Shown in pieces: positions 43,310-45,750 of a stretch of DNA of 64,000 nt. The notes under the pieces were generated by a model, which worked only from the letters and a program-made list of their open reading frames with translations, was not told where the DNA came from and ran no database searches. This DNA comes from Acidobacteriota bacterium. GTDB lineage: Bacteria > Acidobacteriota > Vicinamibacteria > Vicinamibacterales > UBA2999. The stretch covers positions 1 to 64,000 of the forward strand of contig JAGNJW010000013.1 in assembly GCA_018000455.1 (NCBI GenBank), read 5' to 3'. The first letter of the stretch is position 1; each line of letters begins with the position of its first letter. The translations under genes were made by a program, and so were the position numbers.

Positions 43310-43678
43310 TCACCTTTTCGGCTTGGCCGGTCCGGGCGGGCCCGGCAGGCTCACGGCGGGGCCGGCGGTGGCCGTGTCGACGCACGGCCACTTCCGGATC
43401 GCGGTGGAGTGATGCTCAGGATCGTGGCCGGCCGGCAGCACGACGTGAACGAAGGCTTGCAGGTCGCGCTCGGCGGCCGACAACGCCTCCGCCCGCTGCT
43501 CGGCCAGTTGCGGCACGGTCGCTTCGATGCGTGTGCCGGGCGGCAGCGCCTCGGGCGAGAACTCCTCGCCTCGAGGGCCGTGGAAGCGCTGGCCTTTGGT
43601 CTCGAAGGTCCAGCCGGGCTTCATCTTGATCGACACCGGGCGCCGGATGCCCGGCGGCGGTGGCACGGATGGCTGCAT
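43310..43678 (-). CDS. Small protein resembling the neighbouring subtilase's N-terminal prodomain region
   Basis: The protein has 122 residues from the ATG at 43678, with GGGAGG 8 nt upstream; a GTG at 43681 is in frame. Its central part, FVHVVLPAGHDPEHHSTAIR with a following KWPCVDTATAGPAVSLPG, lines up with FVQIVPKRPGDAKKIAAALN and RHDSIWKAYVAPAPVPAF in the protease encoded 30 bp upstream on the same strand. Both have the beta-alpha-beta look of I9/subtilisin propeptides. It has no signal peptide. A role as a separate folding aid or inhibitor of the protease is my inference. The N-terminal FHGPRGEEFSPEALPPGTRI block is unrecognised. Confidence 0.65.
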   Translation of the reverse strand: MQPSVPPPPGIRRPVSIKMKPGWTFETKGQRFHGPRGEEFSPEALPPGTRIEATVPQLAEQRAEALSAAERDLQAFVHVVLPAGHDPEHHSTAIRKWPCVDTATAGPAVSLPGPPGPAKPKR

Positions 43679-43708
43679 CACGTCGTCCTCCCGACGCTAA
43701 CACGCGCG

Positions 43709-45199
43709 CTAGACAAGCTTCATCGCTTCGACCAGGTTCGGCTGCGGCCCGATGCGCTCTGTGAGCGGCACGCCCGGTCCGGCCACCTGCGGGGTGCCGG
43801 TGGCCATCAGGATCTTACGCACCTTCTCCGGGCTGAGCGGCGCGCCGTGCTTGGCCACCGCGCGCCCCTGCAGGCAGGCGACCGCGCCGGTGACGATCGG
43901 TGACGCGCTCGAGGTGCCCGAGAACCGTGCCGTGTACCAGCGGTTCTCGGACTTGTGGCCCTGCAGGTCGCCGTAGGCGAGCGTCGAGACGTGGAAGCCC
44001 CAGCCCTGCACGTTGACGATCTTCCCGTAGTTCGAGAACCAGATGCGCGACCGCGGCACGCCGATCGACTGGTAGGCGGCGCCGAAGCCGCCGCCGCCGT
44101 CGAAGTCGAAGGCGTTACTCGGCGGCACGCCGGCGCCGACGACGATGGCGCCGCTGTCCTTCTGCAGCCCGGTGTTGTTGAAGATCGGCAGCTGGAAGTT
44201 CTCGTTGCCGTTGCCGGCCGCCTCGACCACCGTGATGCCCTTGGCCGTGGCCGCCACGATGGCCGAGAAGATGTCGGGCCAGAACTGCATGGCGACATAC
44301 TTGCCGTTCGGCCCGGTGGCCTGCAGTTCGATCAGGATGACGTCGCCTGACTTCAACTTGCTGGTGGCGTTGGTGAGCGCCTGCGCGAGGTTGAAGACGC
44401 CGCCGATGACGGCCGAGTGCACGACCGCCTTGGCTTCGTGGCTGATGCCCACGCAGCCCTTGCTGTTGGGCACCGACACCATCTCGCCGAGCACCGCGGT
44501 GCCGTGATTGCGCCAGCCGAGGTCGGCGATCATGGTGCCGCCGATGAGGCGAATGCCTCTCGGCAGATCCTCGTGCCTCGTGTTCCAGGCGCCCTCGATG
44601 TCACAGATGGTGATCTTCTTGCCCTTGGCGCCGGCCAGTGGCCACACGTCAGCGGCGCCGATGCCGATTGGAGCGGAATAAAGATAGCCCTGGGTCGGCT
44701 CGAACAGCCGCGTGCCGGCCGAGGATCCGGAGAGGAAGGCGGGTACCGGCGCCGGCGCCACGTAGGCCTTCCAGATGGAGTCGTGACGGTTGAGCGCGGC
44801 CGCGATCTTCTTGGCGTCGCCGGGACGCTTTGGCACGATCTGGACGAATCCGCTCTGACGGAACGCGGCGTCGGCACCACGGCTGTCGAGCACGCGGGCC
44901 GACGGCTCGGCTGGCAACGTGGCGGCCAGGTCGATGCGGTCGCGGATGGCGGCCGCCTTCATCCCGAACTGCGAGCCGATGGACGACACATCGAAACGGG
45001 CCAGGACGTCGTTCAGGCCGGTCGACTGGTCGCGCGCTGCGGCCGGGGCACGGAATCCAGCGGCGCCATACCCGACGGGACTTTCGTAGCGCAGCTCGGC
45101 CACGACGTAGTCGGCCGCCTTCGCCGCCCGGTAGTCGCCGCTCTCGTATCCCGCCTTGTCGCCGCTCTTCCGCGCTCGGCCACGTCGTGCTTTCGCCAT
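43709..45199 (-). CDS. S8 family serine peptidase (subtilase) without export signal
   Basis: The 496-residue protein holds the subtilase triad: Asp in ITICDIEGAWNTRHEDL, His in LGWRNHGTAVLGE, oxyanion Asn in VVEAAGNGNEN, and Ser in FSGTSSASPIVTGAVA near residue 435. A roughly 150-residue N-terminal region precedes the catalytic domain and includes a short propeptide-like unit (about 115-155). The very N-terminus is basic (MAKARRGRARKSGDK) with no signal peptide, so the enzyme may be cytoplasmic or use another route. GGAGG lies 7 nt before the ATG. A co-directional small gene follows 30 bp downstream. Confidence 0.88.
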   Translation of the reverse strand: MAKARRGRARKSGDKAGYESGDYRAAKAADYVVAELRYESPVGYGAAGFRAPAAARDQSTGLNDVLARFDVSSIGSQFGMKAAAIRDRIDLAATLPAEPSARVLDSRGADAAFRQSGFVQIVPKRPGDAKKIAAALNRHDSIWKAYVAPAPVPAFLSGSSAGTRLFEPTQGYLYSAPIGIGAADVWPLAGAKGKKITICDIEGAWNTRHEDLPRGIRLIGGTMIADLGWRNHGTAVLGEMVSVPNSKGCVGISHEAKAVVHSAVIGGVFNLAQALTNATSKLKSGDVILIELQATGPNGKYVAMQFWPDIFSAIVAATAKGITVVEAAGNGNENFQLPIFNNTGLQKDSGAIVVGAGVPPSNAFDFDGGGGFGAAYQSIGVPRSRIWFSNYGKIVNVQGWGFHVSTLAYGDLQGHKSENRWYTARFSGTSSASPIVTGAVACLQGRAVAKHGAPLSPEKVRKILMATGTPQVAGPGVPLTERIGPQPNLVEAMKLV

Positions 45200-45348: not shown

Positions 45349-45750
45349 TTAGGGACGCGGCGCCACCGCGATGGCATTGAGCGCGTCGACCTCGCCGCTG
45401 AGCGGCGTCGACCCGGCCGGGTACTCGTTCAGCTCGAGGAAGTAGGCGATGAGCGCGGCAATCTCCGCGCGCTTCAAGCTGCCGGGGTCGTCCATCGGCA
45501 TCTCGAACATGGCCGCGTCGATCCCCACGAGCGACCTGCCGCCGTAGGCCCGCGCGAACTCGGCGCCGCTGAACTTCGCCGGCTGGTGGCAGCTCTCACA
45601 GACCTGTCCGTAGAGCGCTTTTCCTTCGGCGGCCTGGGCCGCCGTGTAGACGCCATCGTTGGTGGTCGCGCCCTGGGTGCGCGCCGCCATCACACCGCCC
45701 ACCGACGCCAGCGTCAGCGCCGCCATCAGAAGAACCGCAGTTCGTGCCAT
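45349..45750 (-). CDS. Periplasmic c-type cytochrome (monoheme)
   Basis: The 133-residue protein has a signal peptide (residues 1-22) and one heme-binding CESCH at 51-55. The likely distal Met is in FEMPMDDPGSL (84 or 86), and a C-terminal helix reads LIAYFLELNEYPAG. It is a class I small cytochrome c that could accept electrons from the heme-less PQQ dehydrogenases, although it is not linked to them. A TAGGAT hexamer is placed 6 nt before the ATG. A short hairpin (45329-45337 with 45344-45352) overlaps the TAA stop. Confidence 0.88.
   Translation of the reverse strand: MARTAVLLMAALTLASVGGVMAARTQGATTNDGVYTAAQAAEGKALYGQVCESCHQPAKFSGAEFARAYGGRSLVGIDAAMFEMPMDDPGSLKRAEIAALIAYFLELNEYPAGSTPLSGEVDALNAIAVAPRP

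Follow-up and report, generated by a model that had tools for sequence, protein, structure and literature searches.

A subtilase gene and the adjacent gene of a prodomain relative form a mobile bacterial pair, probably a protease–inhibitor module

Propeptides act in cis as chaperones and inhibitors. Those of subtilases are also described as tight and selective inhibitors in trans (PMC10580911), and free-standing proteins that resemble propeptides inhibit their cognate subtilases (PMC6993865). The stand-alone inhibitors of this I9 or propeptide-like kind include the yeast proteinase B inhibitor, POIA1 of Pleurotus, SPI-1 of Arabidopsis, MIC5 of Toxoplasma and SUB1-ProM of Plasmodium (PMC6993865). 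In bacteria, Spi of Streptococcus pyogenes is presented in PMC2873492, citing Kagawa 2005, as an analogue of the propeptide, with its gene next to that of the protease SpeB. Emfourin appears in a reference of PMC9505478 as the prototype of an inhibitor family of its own, and that entry does not describe it as a propeptide copy. The literature covered here is open-access, with subscription journals mostly outside its scope; the stand-alone propeptide mimics of subtilases found in it are all eukaryotic, and it yielded no equivalent for a bacterial subtilase. In a 2008 survey of S8 domain architectures in prokaryotes (PMC2605481), a word search returned no mention of a stand-alone propeptide.

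Here we describe a pair of genes on the minus strand of a 64,000-nucleotide stretch of Acidobacteriota DNA, which we call the window. Both genes are intact, and their features are as follows.

43709–45199, minus strand: coding sequence of the S8 subtilase, 496 aa (open reading frame; Pfam PF00082, E 1.4e-13; orthologues 51–80% identical)
43712–44695, minus strand: catalytic domain, residues 169–496 (orthologue alignments; Pfam)
44738–45115, minus strand: prodomain of the protease, about residues 29–154 (AF2 model; hhalign to sister-clade prodomains)
44738–44851, minus strand: FVQIVPKRPGDAKKIAAALNRHDSIWKAYVAPAPVPA, segment within the prodomain that is similar to the small protein (hhalign)
43679–43708, minus strand: 30-bp spacer between protease and small gene, with a ribosome-binding-like motif GGGAGGA at 43686–43692
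43310–43678, minus strand: coding sequence of the 122-aa prodomain-like partner, ATG start (open reading frame; homologues downstream of the protease in 9/9 loci)
43343–43477, minus strand: prodomain-like segment of the partner, about residues 68–112 (hhalign E 4.6e-5; AF2)

The first-pass annotation had placed the small gene 30 bp downstream of the protease gene, and its coordinates are exact by our open reading frame and sequence check. One copy of the small protein is found in the 5.19-Mb assembly of the source genome. On the same strand, the subtilase gene is preceded by a gene for a cytochrome c-like small protein (45349–45750, minus); at the other loci, no gene of this kind was observed next to the pair.

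Peptidase_S8 is the sole Pfam match in the protease. It covers residues 228–469 (E 1.4e-13) and scores 51.3 bits against a cut-off of 21.8, which places the protein in S8 (PF00082). Alignments of nine orthologues reveal that D200, H232, N330 and S430, i.e. the Asp/His/Ser triad and the oxyanion Asn, are invariant, and judged by these residues the catalytic set of the window subtilase is complete. The AF2 model of the prodomain has a pLDDT of 77–94 across most of residues 31–148 and a strand–helix–strand ... strand–helix–strand topology. Prodomains of the window clade match those of its sister clade in hhalign with E 5.1e-5 over 113 columns. The AF2 model of the catalytic domain is poor (shallow alignment) and is left out of the structural claims; by sequence, the closest solved relatives of this domain are intracellular subtilisins (7xr8, E 8.8e-6). 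The export signal had been reported as missing, which is confirmed by a simple hydrophobicity test only: no hydrophobic stretch is observed at the N-terminus, where the best 15-residue Kyte–Doolittle mean within residues 1–60 is 0.51. Apparently the subtilase stays in the cytosol, as predicted from its sequence. To be noted, a more distant relative (L073) starts with what reads as a leader peptide, and thus the lack of export may be a trait of the clade rather than of the whole family.

A stretch of the small protein had been aligned by eye with the prodomain (FVHVVLPAGHDP against FVQIVPKRPGDA), and hhalign recovers the same register unaided. The profile of nine small proteins matches the protease prodomain with a score of 34.2 (E 4.6e-5, probability 69%), a match carried by about 45–60 columns of these nine sequences. 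The maximum of 200 column shuffles is 21.4, the reversed profile gives 10.2 and the catalytic domain 14.8. The prodomain likeness, which the first-pass annotation had named as a refutable claim, is thus significant and beats all shuffles. The resemblance sits in the C-terminal half of the small protein. Against sister-clade prodomains, the alignment spans 101 columns (E 2.6e-4, score 29.8, shuffle maximum 16.8) and takes in the first strand and the tail (SLP versus ELP). By the yardstick of the match between the two sets of true prodomains, the distance from the small protein to the prodomain is about that between two true prodomains. When a prodomain-only HMM was run on 2163 open reading frames, the top six non-protease matches were small open reading frames beside proteases; the small protein of the window itself reaches only 3.7 bits. 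In a whole-genome scan, the small-protein HMM matches the prodomain of a close-clade protease (G288) at model positions 59–116 with E 0.054. The conserved tail of the small protein is P-x-x-SLP, absent from one copy (L023), and stand-alone copies upstream of other subtilases carry AYVKPxxELP; the prodomain of the protease ends in P-x-P-V-P-A. These profile comparisons show that the small protein is homologous to the subtilase prodomain. A sequence relationship to the cognate prodomain, found here by hhalign with shuffle controls, is a trait of stand-alone propeptide-like inhibitors. Could an unrelated small gene of similar composition carry a coincidental motif? The pairwise identity is weak (about 20%) and both Pfam and the fold search are silent, but the shuffle controls, the calibration on true prodomains, the blind ranking of open reading frames and the 9/9 linkage leave coincidence very little probability. 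A frameshifted piece of the protease was also considered for the small open reading frame and ruled out, the protease keeping its own prodomain in 9/9 loci.

The small protein has no Pfam match. Inhibitor_I9 (PF05922) gives no match at E up to 10 to the nine small proteins, the upstream small open reading frames or the protease prodomains scanned, a search in which HMMER filters may drop very weak I9 matches. Nothing was found for the small protein in NCBIfam and PHROGs, and sequence searches of the PDB with the protein and with its profile returned nothing credible. In PADLOC, no family credibly matches the protease or the small protein; a CARF8 match of the latter (E 0.025) is at chance level. 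AF2 models the small protein with a pLDDT of 82, with strands at residues 14–19, 50–53, 76–80 and 100–105, helices at 68–74 and 87–94, and a hairpin at 24–33. The resulting topology is strand–hairpin–strand–helix–strand–helix–strand, while the propeptide fold consists of two strand–helix–strand units: the first prodomain helix is missing from the model and a beta hairpin takes its place. The prodomain-like segment is modelled as strand–helix–strand and ends in the conserved P...SLP tail. Foldseek with this model returned nothing below E 0.18; its matches, at E 0.18 and above, are antibody and ribosomal folds. In a second look by VIA, the subtilisin propeptide 2z58_B is found at rank 47 (Z 4.0, 66/66 residues, rmsd 3.7 Å). 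Since ribosomal L6 domains score higher there (Z 5–6), the predicted fold is compatible with that of a propeptide, but the comparison is not decisive. The extra N-terminal hairpin and a variable C-terminal tail, both absent from the prodomain, would suit a substrate adaptor or regulatory subunit whose prodomain-like fold recruits proteins to the protease without inhibition. We regard such a role as quite improbable, given that the conserved tail ends propeptide-like, as in the upstream stand-alone copies, and that known free propeptide mimics are inhibitors (PMC6993865).

Conserved co-occurrence of the two genes, on which the earlier reading of the pair had been made to depend, was surveyed with searches from either gene and holds throughout the close clade. 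In 9/9 close-clade loci the protease gene is immediately followed by the small gene, with spacers of about 5–42 bp. Eight of these loci were found from the protease and two from the small protein (G288 and G383), G288 being found both ways. Their hosts are Acidobacteriota, Alpha- and Gammaproteobacteria (Pseudomonadota), Planctomycetota and Hydrogenedentota. The pair is rare: a convincing small gene is present in 3/396 sampled genomes of the phylum of the window and in 1/246 of the Planctomycetota sample. A same-genus relative (G001) has the pair with the same identities as an uncultured Acidobacteria assembly (L015). As in stand-alone propeptide-like inhibitors, the small gene is separate and not part of an enzyme precursor: at the loci it has its own open reading frame, with a start, a stop and a spacer, the start codon being evident except in L019. 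That metagenome contig has a second copy of the C-terminal part of the gene behind an N run (positions 1690–2250 of L019), probably an assembly artefact. Weak extra genome matches (E 1e-3 to 1e-2) were judged chance; several fall in stop-containing frames or in frames of much longer open reading frames. Viral contigs contain no relative of the protease or the small gene, and plasmids no relative of the small protein of the window.

In the catalytic-domain tree, the nine proteases form one clade with support 100/100. Reyranella (Alphaproteobacteria) is placed beside the acidobacterial pair, and Bythopirellula beside Woeseiaceae. The protease tree contradicts the species relationships, and therefore the pair moves horizontally between phyla as a unit. 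Identities of the small protein correlate with those of the catalytic domain (Mantel r 0.66, p 1e-4) and more strongly with those of the prodomain (r 0.87). Purifying selection acts on the small gene (dN/dS about 0.2–0.5), even as it evolves faster than the protease.

This patchy, cross-phylum, horizontally moved cassette of two genes would fit a toxin–immunity pair, in which the protease acts on a cell, after delivery to it or release within it, and the small protein shields the producer. The intracellular protealysin/emfourin protease–inhibitor operon has been proposed to act so (PMC9505478), and a sister-clade relative of the small protein is found on a Rhizobium plasmid beside a trypsin–nuclease fusion and SIR2–HerA defence genes. 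Such a reading is a special case of inhibition and overlaps the explanation we prefer. Taken in its own right it is unlikely: neither a delivery domain nor a signal peptide is observed at the close-clade loci, a conserved third gene was sought there and not found, and neither protein has a credible PADLOC family.

A different role would be that of a folding chaperone in trans, i.e. a second subunit resembling an intramolecular chaperone, in place of lasting inhibition. In mesophilic bacterial subtilases, the propeptide serves both as an inhibitor and as an obligatory chaperone (PMC10580911), and translation right after the protease across such short spacers suits help in folding. However, the protease keeps a complete, conserved prodomain, which would make a second chaperone redundant, and of all parts the partner evolves fastest (mean identity 31% versus 46% and 72%), a better fit to an inhibitor. 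We thus consider a pure chaperone improbable.

A second arrangement is observed in the sister clade, where a prodomain-like open reading frame lies directly upstream of the subtilase (L011, 88 aa; L064, about 84 aa; and L067 at a contig edge). These open reading frames are shorter than the partner in the window, and their subtilases retain their own prodomain. The profiles of upstream and downstream copies match each other with E 1.7e-5. Perhaps the prodomain copy was set free more than once, downstream of the protease in one clade and upstream in another.

Three further loci were observed. On the Rhizobium johnstonii plasmid pRlX5 (NZ_CP140850.1; L070, 1269–7882), a relative of the L064 copy, the stand-alone prodomain-like gene of WP_130788541.1, is located between a Trypsin_2–Endonuclease_NS fusion and a truncated subtilase consisting of a prodomain and the start of a catalytic domain, after which SIR2 and HerA defence-type genes come. 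On plasmid pART37 of Paenibacillus sp. 37 (L029, 3489–5071), prodomain and catalytic domain of a sister-clade subtilase are found in two overlapping open reading frames in different frames, either by a frameshift or as a genuinely split gene; they adjoin another S8 protease and a trypsin-like protease. In pHME505 of Haloferax mediterranei (L027, 3707–5754), the next gene after an archaeal subtilase is a free copy of its C-terminal domain with nearly the same sequence (FRGTVPANS...), here another protease domain repeated as a separate downstream gene.

We conclude that the two genes probably form a protease–inhibitor module, in which the small protein is a dedicated trans inhibitor related to the prodomain and possibly also a folding helper. 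In this mechanism, the subtilase would be synthesised, apparently in the cytosol, with an N-terminal prodomain of its own that would fold and transiently block the catalytic domain. The downstream gene would supply a second, free-standing prodomain relative docking on the same protease surface. Its P-x-x-S-L-P tail may lie in the substrate cleft, where the prodomain C-terminus would lie. We infer that the partner binds the mature enzyme and keeps it inactive in trans, with degradation or displacement of the partner ending the block. Three points make inhibition in trans most likely: free propeptides of subtilases inhibit tightly and selectively (PMC10580911), stand-alone propeptide mimics inhibit or regulate subtilases (PMC6993865), and bacterial protease genes that neighbour the gene of a propeptide analogue or other inhibitor are an established arrangement (PMC2873492; PMC9505478). 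The first-pass annotation had read the pair in this way, hedging on folding or inhibition in trans, and the sequence analysis supports that reading.

This suggests a dedicated off-switch, of a kind that nobody appears to have described in bacteria. Tentatively, the pair may represent a new horizontally mobile bacterial two-gene system, in which a freed prodomain copy is dedicated to inhibiting a cytosolic subtilase or giving immunity to it, possibly in defence or programmed-death networks. If true, a second prodomain made as a separate protein offers a simple genetic system for how propeptides became stand-alone inhibitors. It would also be a small mobile protease–inhibitor cassette whose role in regulation, competition or defence is directly testable. 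The small-protein family is so far without a description in Pfam, NCBIfam, PHROGs and PADLOC.

Intracellular subtilisins of bacteria (ISPs) are known to have only a short N-terminal extension. Like ISPs (PDB 7xr8, 7y6m, 2wwt), the window protease is a subtilase without an export signal; it differs from them in its prodomain of about 120 residues and its free partner. The protealysin–emfourin operon of Serratia (PMC9505478) likewise combines an intracellular protease with an inhibitor gene, the inhibitor role being a prediction in the window, but protealysin is a metalloprotease. In SpeB–Spi, as in the window, a bacterial protease gene adjoins a gene for a propeptide analogue. There the genes are co-transcribed and Spi inhibits SpeB. 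SpeB is a C10 cysteine protease and the window protease belongs to S8, which places the pair outside the SpeB–Spi type; both the protease and the propeptide families are unrelated. Comparable too are the stand-alone I9 or propeptide-like inhibitors, which like the window partner are small free-standing proteins resembling a subtilase propeptide, and Plasmodium SUB1-ProM is also encoded beside subtilase genes (PMC6993865). The window partner differs from I9 inhibitors in that no Pfam model including I9 matches it, its first helix is apparently replaced by a hairpin and its inhibitor role is predicted. The stand-alone inhibitors named in PMC6993865 are all eukaryotic, whereas the window partner is bacterial and is encoded in a two-gene, operon-like arrangement with its protease.
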